Assembly: GCA_903859705.1 (NCBI GenBank)
Contig: CAIONQ010000162.1
Location: 1 to 64,000 of the forward strand
Length of the DNA: 64,000 nucleotides
Direction of reading: 5' to 3'
From: an uncultured Chthonomonas sp.
Lineage (GTDB): Bacteria; Armatimonadota; Chthonomonadetes; Chthonomonadales; Chthonomonadaceae
Both the position numbers and the translations under genes were made by a program. Below the pieces are notes generated by a model. The model saw nothing but the letters and a program-made list of their open reading frames with translations. It did not search any database and was not told the origin of the DNA. Below are positions 47,412-51,699 of the stretch, piece by piece. How positions within the stretch are numbered: the first letter of the stretch is position 1; every line of letters starts with the position of its first letter.

Positions 47412-47978
47412 GTGCCAAAGATTGATACCGCCGACTTTAAGAATGGTCTCTCATTTCTGCTGGACGGCGAGATCTTCACCATTGTTTGGTTTCAGCATCA
47501 CAAGCCCGGCAAGGGCGGCGCAGTTATGCGATCGAAGCTGAAGAACCTCCGAACCGGTGGTGTGATCGACAAGACGTTTAATGCAGGTGAAAAATTTGAG
47601 CAAGCGATCCTGGATCGCCATCCAATGCAATATCTGTACAACCAGGACGGTGAATATGTTCTGATGAACCCGGAAACCTTTGACCAGGTATCTATATCGG
47701 CTGCCGACTTTGGTGATACTCTCAAATACCTCAAGGATGGCATGGAAGTACAAGTCATTGAGCACGATGAGAAGATTCTTGGCGCAGAAGTAGCTACTTT
47801 CGTTGAGCTGGAAGTTGTGCAGACAGACCCTGCTTTCAAGGGCGATACGGCATCTGGCGGAGGCAAGCCTGCTACGTTGGAAACGGGTGCTGTTATTAAC
47901 GTTCCATTTTTTGTAAATGTTGGGGACAAAGTAAAGGTTGACACGCGTACGGATAGCTATCTCGAACGTGTTAAGTAG
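47412..47978 (+). CDS. efp: translation elongation factor P
   Basis: 188 residues from GTG 47412, 7 bases after GGAGG; an upstream in-frame start at 47304 would include the promoter. EF-P relieves ribosomes stalled on polyproline. The three OB-like domains fit, and the modified loop reads His-His-Lys-Pro-Gly-Lys-Gly-Gly-Ala, giving a conserved Lys at the tip as in the beta-lysylated or unmodified types. The C-terminal Val-Asp-Thr-Arg-Thr-x-Ser-Tyr-Leu-Glu-Arg-Val is standard. No efp-modifying enzyme is nearby. Confidence 0.97.
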   Translation: MPKIDTADFKNGLSFLLDGEIFTIVWFQHHKPGKGGAVMRSKLKNLRTGGVIDKTFNAGEKFEQAILDRHPMQYLYNQDGEYVLMNPETFDQVSISAADFGDTLKYLKDGMEVQVIEHDEKILGAEVATFVELEVVQTDPAFKGDTASGGGKPATLETGAVINVPFFVNVGDKVKVDTRTDSYLERVK

Positions 47979-48078
47979 GGCAGTGCTTTGTCGCTGAACC
48001 TGCGCTCTGGTGAATTATGGGCAGGCGTTTGAGTCTGCCCTTTCGGCAAAGTTGTTTCACCAGGCAGAAGGAGATCCA

Positions 48079-49287
48079 TTGCGAATCAGACAGTCGAACG
48101 AAGGTCTATCCGGCATCATCTCCGAACAAGCCGAAGACCTGATAAAGAAAATTTTTCAGCTGGCCCTTGCAGCCAGTTTGATTTTGTTCGTCTACCTGAT
48201 GTATGGTCTCTTCTCGGGAGACCTCGCAGATGTCGCTGGCAAACCAGATGCTGCAAAGCATGCTCTGGCTGTGGTGGCACAGATATCCAATTATCTTAAT
48301 CTTGCACTTGTAATCACGCTTGTAACCAGCATTTTGCTCTATTACGATGAGAGTGTTTATGGCTTTAGTTTGCTTGGTATAGCAGCTTTCCTCGCATATG
48401 GGCTTCAGTTTTCAATAGACCTTCTGTTTGCTTCTGAGGCTCCAAGGTTAACCTCTGGGGCAGCATCGAAGTCACTTCTGCATGAAGTTTGGCTAATGGC
48501 AATGATGATCGGAGCTCCCGGTATCATCATGGTTGTGCGCTCGATGTTTGTCCGGATACTTGAGGGGCGACAGGGTGAGGACCTTACAGCCGTTCAATAT
48601 GGTAAAGGAGTTGCCCGCGAAGATGACGTGCCAAAGGCGGCAATTCCGATCCTTGCGAAGTGCTGGCAACTGCCATTTTGCCGTGCCGGTATCCGTAAGA
48701 ACTGCCCAATTTTTCTGGCCAAAACGCGTTGCTGGAAAGAGCGCGTTGGCTGTATGTGCGAAGAGAACATCATAATGCTGGCGATGGGCGGAACCGAGGC
48801 CCAGACGCCAGTCAACATGACAAAAGAGATGGGGTTTGTAGCCATTGGCGATATATTGGCCAAGAACAACGAGGACAAACGAGCCTCAATACAAACCAGG
48901 CCAGGGCCACATGGTGTGCGCATTCCAGTTAATCCGCACATTACACACGAGCAGCAGAAGTATCGATGTAACAACTGCATTATTTACAACGAGCATCAGC
49001 GGCTTAAGTATAGTTTCTTCTCTGTGCCGGTAACCTTGTGTGTTCCAGTTGTGGTATTCTGGCAGTTTGATGCGGTGCGTGCTCTGCTTACAACTGTGCT
49101 TCAGGGCATAGATAAGCTGGTTGCTCACCTGTCAATTTCGGGGAATGGGGGAGTTTCTCTGGACCTCTCCCGGCAGATTGCCGGAAGTTTGCCCATTGAA
49201 ACCATTCTGATCATCTGCCTGGTACTTGTGCTGATGACCTGGGCCCAACGGCTACTTGAGTACTGCATCTTCACAATCAAGATTTAG
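48079..49287 (+). CDS. unknown membrane protein with a two-CW-like cysteine cluster
   Basis: 402 residues from TTG 48079, 6 bases after AAGGAG; a GTG at 48010 lacks a ribosome site. Membrane helices are near residues 20-45, 65-90, 95-125, 140-155, 310-330 and 370-395. The cytosolic loop between them holds Cys195-Trp, Cys201, Cys209-Pro, Cys218-Trp, Cys225 and Cys227, then Cys297 and Cys300 (Cys-Asn-Asn-Cys). The spacing resembles the two-CW zinc or Fe-S-type motif. I recognise no full-length family. It lies between efp and accB, overlapping no other reading; accB starts 22 bases after it. Confidence 0.75.
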   Translation: MRIRQSNEGLSGIISEQAEDLIKKIFQLALAASLILFVYLMYGLFSGDLADVAGKPDAAKHALAVVAQISNYLNLALVITLVTSILLYYDESVYGFSLLGIAAFLAYGLQFSIDLLFASEAPRLTSGAASKSLLHEVWLMAMMIGAPGIIMVVRSMFVRILEGRQGEDLTAVQYGKGVAREDDVPKAAIPILAKCWQLPFCRAGIRKNCPIFLAKTRCWKERVGCMCEENIIMLAMGGTEAQTPVNMTKEMGFVAIGDILAKNNEDKRASIQTRPGPHGVRIPVNPHITHEQQKYRCNNCIIYNEHQRLKYSFFSVPVTLCVPVVVFWQFDAVRALLTTVLQGIDKLVAHLSISGNGGVSLDLSRQIAGSLPIETILIICLVLVLMTWAQRLLEYCIFTIKI

Positions 49288-49309: not shown

Positions 49310-49756
49310 ATGGATAACACTGAGATGGAACAGCTTGTAGCGCTGTTCAAACAGTCTCGAGTACGCGAGCTAACGCTGAAACAAGGCGTAGCTCGGATTA
49401 CGCTCAAGCAAACAGTGCCAGGTGCAGCATCGGAAATCGGTGGAGAACTGGTTCCTTATTCTGCCGAATCAGCACTTTTTGATACGTTCGCTTCTGGTTA
49501 CGAGGCGGAGTTTGCATCGGCAATAGAAAAATCAGTGGAAGTTACATCACCGCTTGTGGGTGTGTTTCACCATACGCGGCCACTGGTTGGCCTTGGTGCA
49601 AAGGTTTCCGAGGGCCAGGTAATCGCAGTTATTGAGGCGATGAAGCTGAATACTGAAGTTACAGCCCCGGTAGCCGGTGTTATAACCGATGTGCTGATTG
49701 AAGATGGTATGCCTGCTGAGTACGGACAGCCCTTGTTCATGCTCAAGTGTGAGTAG
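49310..49756 (+). CDS. accB: biotin carboxyl carrier protein of acetyl-CoA carboxylase
   Basis: 148 residues from ATG 49310. The biotinyl domain occupies about residues 75-148 and carries the biotin-acceptor Lys in Glu-Ala-Met-Lys-Leu-Asn, flanked by the expected Pro-Leu-Val-Gly-Val and Gly-Gln-Pro-Leu-Phe. An upstream frame from 49256 would overlap the membrane protein gene and is not needed. It carries CO2 between biotin carboxylase and the carboxyltransferase in the first step of fatty-acid synthesis. Between it and accC sits a prepilin gene. Confidence 0.95.
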   Translation: MDNTEMEQLVALFKQSRVRELTLKQGVARITLKQTVPGAASEIGGELVPYSAESALFDTFASGYEAEFASAIEKSVEVTSPLVGVFHHTRPLVGLGAKVSEGQVIAVIEAMKLNTEVTAPVAGVITDVLIEDGMPAEYGQPLFMLKCE

Positions 49757-49778: not shown

Positions 49779-50177
49779 ATGCTCCCGGAACGGATACAAT
49801 CTGCAGCAAGGCCAACGCGTGGCGGCTTCTCACTGATAGAAATACTGGTAGTGTGTGTGCTTCTGGTTAGCTTAAGTGCAGGCATGTACAGTTTTTATGC
49901 CGGCAAAAGTAAGCCCGGACCAAATGGCGAAAAGACTGCCAGAACCCCAATGGAGAGGGCGCACGATCCTGAGTGCATAAATCAACTTAGCCAGTTGAGA
50001 CAGGCACTTCAGATGGCTCAAACCAATAGCGAAAACGGCAAATACCCGCAGCAGCTTACGGATATCCACGGAGTACCGCAAACATTCTTTTCGTGCCCCG
50101 AGGGGCATCAGGCCTATGCGTACGACCCCGAAACAGGGCAGGTGCACTGCACCACATCGGGTCACGGAAAATACTGA
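49779..50177 (+). CDS. prepilin-like (type II secretion/type IV pilin) protein
   Basis: 132 residues from ATG 49779, right after CGGAGG; a longer frame from 49698 overlaps accB. The type IV prepilin signal is clear: a charged leader, Gly-Phe-Ser-Leu-Ile-Glu cleavage motif and about 20 hydrophobic residues. The globular part has two Cys pairs, Cys-Ile-Asn-Gln-Leu and Phe-Ser-Cys-Pro-Glu-Gly-His, and looks like a short GspG-type pseudopilin or competence-type minor pilin. Its position inside the acc locus, 22 bases after accB, suggests co-transcription. Confidence 0.87.
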   Translation: MLPERIQSAARPTRGGFSLIEILVVCVLLVSLSAGMYSFYAGKSKPGPNGEKTARTPMERAHDPECINQLSQLRQALQMAQTNSENGKYPQQLTDIHGVPQTFFSCPEGHQAYAYDPETGQVHCTTSGHGKY

Positions 50178-50325: not shown

Positions 50326-51699
50326 ATGTTTAAAAAGATACTGATTGCCAACCGTGGTGAGATCGCAGTACGCATAATTCGTGCGTGCCGTGAAATGAAG
50401 ATCAAAACGGTGGCTGTGTACTCCACCGCGGATGCCGAATCACTGCATGTTCAGATGGCCGATGAGGCCGTTTGTATTGGCCCCCCAGCACCTAAGGATA
50501 GCTATCTGCATGCACCCAATATTATCTCTGCGGCGCATATTACAGGGGCAGAAGCCGTGCATCCCGGAATTGGGTTCCTTTCGGAGCGTCCCTCATTTGC
50601 AGAGGCCTGTGAAGCCTGCGGCCTGAAGTTTATCGGCCCATCTGCTGCATCGATGGAGCGCATGGGAGACAAATCGGCGGCCCGAGAAACTATGTCAAAA
50701 GCAGGTGTACCCGTTATCCCGGGGTCGGCAGGTGCTATCGCCACAGAGCAAGATGCCCTCAGGTTTGCTCAGAAAACAGGGTACCCGCTGCTTATCAAGG
50801 CATCGCTGGGAGGCGGTGGCCGAGGTATTCGGCTTGTTCAGAACGATGAAGAGTTGCCCCGCCAGTTAGAGCTGGCGCGCGCCGAAGGGTTAACGGCATT
50901 CGGAAGCCCGGAGGTTTATCTCGAGAAGTTTGTTGAAGAGCCCCGCCACATCGAAGTTCAGATCATTGCCGATGAGCATGGCCATGTTGTGCACCTGGGA
51001 GAGCGTGATTGCTCAATTCAGAACCTGCGCCATCAAAAGCTGGTGGAAGAAGCTCCTGCCGCACAACTAACCCAAACTCAGCGCAACCGGATAGGCGATG
51101 CGGCAGTGAGGGCCGCGCGGGCTATAGGCTACTCTAACGCTGGCACTGTTGAGTTTTTGGTAGATGCGCGTGGCGATTTCTATTTCCTGGAAATGAACAA
51201 GCGCCTTCAAGTGGAACACTGCATAACAGAGCAGGTAACGGGCATCGATCTGGTTAAGACGCAGATTATGGTAGCTGCCGGGGAAAAGCTTCCGTTTGTA
51301 CAAAAAGAAGTGCGGTGGGATGGCCATGCCATTGAATGCCGCATCAATGCGGAAGATCCGGAACGCAACTTTGCGCCAAGTGCGGGCCGCATTGAGCATG
51401 TTGTATTGCCAGGCGGATTTGGTGTTCGGGTTGACACACATATTCAGCCAGGGTTTGTTGTTTCGCCATACTACGACCCAATGGTGGCCAAAATCATTGT
51501 CTGGGATAAAACTCGTGCTGGCGCAATCAGCCGCATGAACCGATGCCTGCAAGAGACAGTGATCACTGGCATAAAAACAAACATCCAATTCCAGCAGAAG
51601 ATCATCAACAATGCTTTCTACCGACGTGGCGAGCTAACTACTGACTTCCTGCAGCGCAGAATTCTAAACGGCGCAGATGTGCCCGTAGTTGCGGGTTAA
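50326..51699 (+). CDS. accC: biotin carboxylase subunit of acetyl-CoA carboxylase
   Basis: 457 residues, ATG preceded by AGAAGGAA. ATP-grasp enzyme that carboxylates biotin on AccB. The opening Ile-Leu-Ile-Ala-Asn-Arg-Gly-Glu-Ile-Ala, Gly-Gly-Gly-Gly-Arg-Gly-Ile for ATP binding, His-Glu-Val/Ile-Gln and Phe-Leu-Glu-Met-Asn-x-Arg-Leu-Gln-Val-Glu-His are all there. One note: the usual Met-Asn-Thr-Arg reads Met-Asn-Lys-Arg. It is separated from accB by the prepilin gene and a spacer of about 150 bases. Confidence 0.97.
   Translation: MFKKILIANRGEIAVRIIRACREMKIKTVAVYSTADAESLHVQMADEAVCIGPPAPKDSYLHAPNIISAAHITGAEAVHPGIGFLSERPSFAEACEACGLKFIGPSAASMERMGDKSAARETMSKAGVPVIPGSAGAIATEQDALRFAQKTGYPLLIKASLGGGGRGIRLVQNDEELPRQLELARAEGLTAFGSPEVYLEKFVEEPRHIEVQIIADEHGHVVHLGERDCSIQNLRHQKLVEEAPAAQLTQTQRNRIGDAAVRAARAIGYSNAGTVEFLVDARGDFYFLEMNKRLQVEHCITEQVTGIDLVKTQIMVAAGEKLPFVQKEVRWDGHAIECRINAEDPERNFAPSAGRIEHVVLPGGFGVRVDTHIQPGFVVSPYYDPMVAKIIVWDKTRAGAISRMNRCLQETVITGIKTNIQFQQKIINNAFYRRGELTTDFLQRRILNGADVPVVAG

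Follow-up and report, generated by a model that had tools for sequence, protein, structure and literature searches.

Which role could a membrane protein with a conserved cluster of cysteines play between the genes of elongation factor P and the biotin carboxyl carrier protein? The question is raised by an open reading frame in a 64,000-nucleotide stretch of DNA from an uncultured Chthonomonas sp. (the whole stretch is called the window below, and the protein X). An initial annotation of the letters had seen in X a cysteine-rich loop resembling a two-CW metal site between membrane helices, and had proposed that the protein might sense redox or metal status for lipid synthesis or envelope growth.

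The gene and its surroundings

The following features, all on the plus strand, were recognized around X.

47412..47978 (+): efp, elongation factor P; start at GTG 47412 inferred by eye, longest ORF from 47304; Pfam
48068..48073 (+): ribosome-binding site AAGGAG, with 5-base spacing to a TTG start; read directly
48079..49287 (+): coding sequence of X, 402 amino acids, about six membrane segments and an eight-Cys central domain; ORF, orthologue alignment, profile survey, AlphaFold2
49310..49756 (+): accB, biotin carboxyl carrier protein; ORF and Pfam
49779..50177 (+): pilin-like protein carrying an N-terminal methylation motif; 21.6 bits with Pfam N_methyl, against a cut-off of 21.2
50326..51699 (+): accC, biotin carboxylase; ORF and Pfam

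By ORF reading the longest frame of X opens earlier, at the in-frame GTG 48010. Three Pfam EF-P domains were found in the product of the upstream gene, and the ATG of accB at 49310 follows the stop codon of X after 22 bases; the position assigned to X, between efp and accB and 22 bases before the latter, was thus confirmed by ORF reading and Pfam. The pilin-like gene between accB and accC encodes a CPEGH motif and a later C..GH motif, and a similar pilin-like gene occupies the accB-accC slot in many of the phylum's loci, whether or not X is present. The 64-kb window itself contains no PilT-like ORF.

Conservation of the cysteines and distribution of X

The cysteines of X fall into two groups, which together form the pattern CW-x4-C-x7-CP-x7-CW-x4-GC-x-C ... 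C-x-x-C.

48661..48759 (+): six-Cys core C195-W..C201..C209-P..C218-W..G-C225-x-C227, two-CW related; alignments, profiles
48967..48978 (+): C297-x-x-C300, followed by conserved I302, Y303, H306, Q307 and K310; alignments

All cysteines of the described cluster are present, and they are conserved far beyond chance in 58 orthologous ORFs (70 loci minus 12 shorter duplicates of the same places), whose identity to the X of the window ranges from 67% down to 17%. C195, C209, C218, C225 and C227 are Cys in 58/58 ORFs; C201 is Cys in 57/58, the exception (L059) having a displaced Cys; C297 and C300 are Cys in 57/58, with a gap in the remaining row (L029), which stops at a contig end. W219 is W in all 58 rows, and W196 is W in 55 and Y in three. 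The initial annotation would have been contradicted by poorly conserved cysteines, but the opposite was found: in alignment A1, which has 57 rows because the fragment L029 was left out, seven of the cysteines are invariant. They belong to ten invariant columns (C195, C209, C218, W219, G224, C225, C227, C297, C300 and K310); columns conserved to at least 90% are W196, C201, P210, I302, H306, Q307 and E394. The eight-Cys pattern was matched in 168 of 170 X loci (some genomes counted twice), the two others being the truncated L029 and L059, which has eight cysteines with one displaced.

A profile built from 57 orthologues detected X in 273 of 291 Armatimonadota genomes and in 187 of the 194 good ones (at least 90% complete, at most 5% contaminated); a single-sequence search recovered it from 59 of the 61 genomes of the phylum searched in this way. 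Seven of the 18 genomes that appeared to lack X also gave no efp, so in these the locus may be missing from the assembly. X is a real, hitherto unannotated membrane-protein family kept across almost the whole of the Armatimonadota. When genomes were scanned with X alone as the query, none of 79 stretches was confirmed; a second scan with the X alignment confirmed 119 of 126. The titles of 80 of the confirmed stretches were listed, and they named Armatimonadota, its classes or unnamed bacteria, with one archaeal exception; the patterns used for scanning were drawn from Armatimonadota sequences, and distant homologues elsewhere could escape them. The exception (L177) is an X whose contig bears the title 'Methanoregulaceae archaeon isolate SJ84'; the contig is probably mislabelled or part of a mixed bin. 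A tblastn search of plasmids with a relative of X gave no match.

In three loci long proline-rich N-terminal extensions or open frames precede X (L038 5679-6312, L039 5641-6337 and, on the minus strand, L031 5120-5729). By BLAST these frames were unalike, and they gave no indication of a domain fused to X. EF-P helps the translation of proline runs, and the proline-rich frame of L031 lies just downstream of efp.

Membrane segments and topology

Alignment-averaged hydropathy revealed six hydrophobic cores in X, four before the Cys loop and two after it, each of which coincides with a helix of the AlphaFold2 model.

48154..48207 (+): core 1, residues 26-43; AlphaFold2 helix 16-46
48289..48324 (+): core 2, residues 71-82; AlphaFold2 helix 56-87
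48376..48408 (+): core 3, residues 100-110; AlphaFold2 helix 92-116
48496..48537 (+): core 4, residues 140-153; AlphaFold2 helix 128-162
49030..49059 (+): core 5, residues 318-327; AlphaFold2 helix 301-328
49198..49251 (+): core 6, residues 374-391; AlphaFold2 helix 371-400

The model of the whole protein has a mean pLDDT of 85.8 and a pTM of 0.72, and the claim that helices bracket the Cys loop holds by both hydropathy and model. X would span the inner membrane about six times, and its two ends and large central domain would face the cytoplasm. The Cys loop was placed there because the stretch carrying it (residues 161-310) is basic, with an alignment average of 24.4 K+R against 13.4 D+E. The C-terminus, with a mean of 2.2 K+R against 1.1 D+E, likewise has the charge expected on the cytoplasmic side. 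The positive-inside signal is nevertheless mixed: the N-terminal stretch is neutral (1.6 K+R, 1.7 D+E), and the loop joining segments 2 and 3, also cytoplasmic under the proposed topology, is acidic (0.4 K+R, 2.0 D+E). In a Cys loop placed in the cytoplasm, metal coordination is the best explanation for eight conserved cysteines, as disulphides would be unusual there; these residues probably hold metal.

Searches for related families and folds

The profile search proposed in the initial annotation was run and related X to no characterised family: neither Pfam nor PADLOC gave a match up to E 1, nor did NCBIfam up to E 10. Scanning 57 members of the family gave scattered weak matches, none shared by more than three members among the families listed (25 of 26 in one scan, 25 of 47 in the other). 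No description of X was found in the literature, as judged by title and opening of the abstract among the matches listed. X is a membrane protein present in nearly every genome of a phylum, yet the libraries searched contain no model of its family and the literature found proposes no role for it.

Solved relatives sought by sequence were unconvincing, the best being claudin-19 with alignment A1 (E 0.2) and centromere protein S with alignment A3 (E 0.17). A fold search with the model of whole X returned nothing at E 0.001 or better. By VIA the best Z, 8.0 for residues 17-160, was obtained with a designed repeat and may reflect just a common helical arrangement. When the Cys domain of the orthologue L035 was modelled from 101 aligned loops, it gave a small helical domain (pLDDT 90.2, pTM 0.76), for which Foldseek returned only three PDB matches, all with E above 8, and VIA none at Z 2 among seven chains. 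A missing fold match does not prove that the loop has a new fold.

The cysteines could also serve electron transfer, with X as an iron-sulphur membrane protein that passes electrons to a membrane partner through one or two [4Fe-4S] clusters. Eight conserved cysteines are enough for two such clusters; the loop, however, has no ferredoxin-like CxxCxxC motif, no redox enzyme recurs among the neighbours scanned and, as weaker evidence, neither the sequence nor the fold searches led to a solved iron-sulphur protein. We consider this role improbable.

Relation to the two-CW domain

Two CW dipeptides, an intervening Cys and a distal C-x-x-C, which we take to define the two-CW domain (partly from reading its members), are all present in X. 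The NCBIfam model of this domain (NF045718, two_CW_domain; 80 positions, curated cut-off 35 bits) matches 21 of the 291 genomes of the phylum, 18 of them above the cut-off, and gives no match in the window's own genome. It did not match X up to E 10, nor was it among the 25 of 26 weakly matching families listed for the 57 members. A literature search for the phrase 'two-CW domain' found no paper.

Profiles made from the domain itself gave a different picture. When a profile of 23 two-CW domains from the phylum was run on 7819 ORFs, 30 two-CW proteins came first, followed mainly by X, which accounted for 65 of the other 103 matches (best E = 1.9e-4); the rest were mostly unrelated ORFs, one of them as high as E = 0.012. 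In the reverse search with an X-loop profile, two-CW proteins were the best matches outside the family (E from 0.0074), with chance ORFs intermixed from E = 0.083. X loops scored a mean of 14.0 bits with the 23-domain profile, against -1.1 bits for full shuffles, -1.3 bits for shuffles with the cysteines fixed and 4.4 bits for those with Cys and CW fixed. As the last value shows, the spacing of Cys and CW explains part of the signal but not all of it. A profile of the short form of the domain (13 rows) brought up X, whereas one of the long form (10 rows) had no X matches and gave the real loops -0.8 bits. The probability reported by hhalign for X against two-CW was 25-28%, in a comparison in which L085, one of the two-CW rows, had been trimmed at the wrong position.

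The resemblance claimed at the outset shows in profile matches above background in both directions, though not with the long-form profile and not as a match to NF045718. We read the loop as a remote relative of the two-CW domain, closest to the short form linked to helix-turn-helix domains (e.g. L085); X looks like a membrane-embedded variant of the two-CW kind rather than a member as NF045718 delimits it. Both have CW, C, C(P), CW, a further Cys and the final C-x-x-C, with an aromatic residue shortly after, and the CW-x4-C-x7-C segment is identical in X and the short form of L085. The differences are that X has C225-x-C227 where the two-CW domain has one Cys, that the stretch from the six-Cys core to CxxC is much more variable in X, and that the module of X is inserted between membrane helices, whereas the two-CW proteins scanned were kinase, PAS, helix-turn-helix or short stand-alone proteins. 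Two-CW hosts include a histidine kinase with GAF and HATPase domains (L075), a protein with a PAS domain (L072) and several of the helix-turn-helix type (L084, L085, L090), which indicates that the domain is able to act as an input module; the relationship ties X to a module recurring in sensors. Small proteins in which a short two-CW domain accompanies an XRE/MqsA-like helix-turn-helix were noted at L084, L085, L086, L089 and L090 (three of them scanned), and genomes G252 and G282 each gave several short two-CW matches.

Gene neighbourhood

The neighbourhood of X was surveyed in 60 loci, picked for coverage of families and not at random; spacings were counted to or from the first conserved residue and not between open frames. 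Mechanical gene calls are unreliable in GC-rich loci. An efp gene lay upstream on the same strand in 38 loci, and accB followed X in 28 of these, mostly with less than 100 bases to its first conserved residue. Three more loci had accB beside X without efp, and in ten, some of them at contig ends, neither efp, PilT nor accB adjoined X. The survey that the initial annotation had called for thus found accB after X in many loci, but the linkage is not constant, and accB/accC did not accompany X wherever it occurs.

The arrangement of efp, X and accB on one strand in 28/60 loci speaks for a role of X in sensing metal or redox state and adjusting acetyl-CoA carboxylase or fatty-acid synthesis. YqhY is encoded together with acc genes, and in Bacillus the spoIIIA genes lie between efp and accB. 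A precedent for control of the carboxylase is YqhY of Bacillus subtilis (Asp23 family), reported to control ACCase (PMC5437119); X differs from it in being a membrane Cys protein, and one with no Pfam match up to E 1. The SpoIIIA genes of B. subtilis share with X the efp-accB slot, and SpoIIIAA is reported to resemble type II/IV secretion ATPases (PMC2703783). X itself had no Pfam match (E up to 1) to relate it to SpoIIIA, and no SpoIIIA model was among the 25 of 47 weakly matching families listed for 57 members. A literature search found no paper naming efp, spoIIIA and accB together.

Three observations argue against a link to acetyl-CoA carboxylase. An efp search in 24 genomes, selected mainly for having X apart from efp, found the gene in 21; efp led directly into accB in 12 of these, and all 12 have X elsewhere. 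Genomes G239 (97% complete) and G225 (99% complete) lack X by profile, yet keep a contiguous efp-accB-pilin-accC. In the seven loci of family f14, X lies after efp and before a gene resembling RNA 3'-phosphate cyclase, not accB; the assignment was made by Pfam for one locus and by similarity for the rest. Since X persists whether or not it is linked to acc genes, acetyl-CoA carboxylase is an unlikely partner: the changing neighbours point away from lipid synthesis, a connection for which the proposed sensing role found no support, and we regard control of the carboxylase by X as improbable too. The f14 loci in which the cyclase-like gene directly follows X are L037, L042, L114, L115, L116, L117 and L120.

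When three labels for gene context were mapped on a tree of 60 X proteins, 7 changes were required, against a mean of 19.2 after shuffling; the labels were assigned by hand, and L044, with X at the end of its contig and no visible efp, was put in the efp group. So few changes mean that gene context has been inherited over long times with few moves. They also suit a quite different explanation, namely that X is a metal or redox membrane protein with a general part in envelope biogenesis, or an unrecognised transporter or enzyme, and that the gene order is inherited and meaningless. Its retention throughout the phylum whatever its neighbours and the absence of all the usual neighbours in 10/60 loci speak for this; the PilT genes described below, which in six families lie shortly before X and share its strand, an arrangement that often marks an operon, speak against it. 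We judge it a serious possibility that is somewhat short of probable.

PilT-type neighbours and possible function

PilT-like genes were found directly upstream of X on the same strand in 9 of the 60 loci, in two or three tandem copies, and the X proteins next to them come from six families (f7, f11, f12, f23, f26 and f43). The distance from the PilT stop codon to the first conserved residue of X was 5-115 bases in seven of the nine, 282 in L043 and 1111 in L039. All seven PilT-like neighbours tested scored 430-488 bits with TIGR01420 (cut-off 319). These PilT/PilU-family type IV pilus ATPases are neighbours of X and not its homologues, and can be considered only as possible partners. Their adjacency is suggestive, pointing to type IV pilus or secretion machinery as the best candidate partner.

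Only two of the 291 genomes lack PilT-family genes, which were found in 289 (at most six candidates were scored per genome), and owing to this near-ubiquity their co-occurrence with X says little. A joint loss of X and PilT copies was considered and not adopted. It is suggested by the X-less genomes G152, G153 and G239, with 1, 1 and 2 PilT-family matches, and weakly by X-less G225, which has three such genes against four in four other genomes of its family; it is contradicted by G000, G003 and G117, which carry X with just one or two. One genome is reported to have six PilT and 79 pseudopilin genes (PMC4072686); pilin-like genes are so numerous in the phylum that a pilin neighbour is weak evidence.

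Taken together, X may be a membrane-anchored, metal-binding two-CW-like module, perhaps an accessory of the pilus machinery, a reading that we put forward tentatively and at rather less than even chances; its metal-binding part is clearly more likely than its pilus part. The central domain would be a divergent two-CW relative in which the eight cysteines coordinate metal, most simply as two four-Cys sites with zinc or iron-sulphur, metal binding being what we infer from the conserved sequence. By analogy with two-CW relatives, which include input and regulatory modules, X may act as a membrane-anchored docking or sensing module. Its partner would be a type IV pilus or type II secretion-like machinery, especially the PilT/PilU-family motor ATPases, and not acetyl-CoA carboxylase; the choice of a pilus motor is speculative. 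In a more specific and rather unlikely version, X would be a type IV pilus component characteristic of the phylum, a platform in the membrane to which PilT-family motors dock through the cytoplasmic two-CW-like domain; this domain would be sensitive to metal or redox state and make pilus retraction depend on it. Were such docking true, X would represent a two-CW-type module built between membrane helices, for which no solved relative was found, and a true pilus link would mean lineage-specific control of the several PilT paralogues of Armatimonadota. The eight conserved cysteines make X directly testable, by its metal content and by Cys mutants.

Runs of three neighbouring PilT/PilU-family genes (in G008, G031, G043, G047, G054, G155, G170 and G246) are common in the phylum and also occur away from X.
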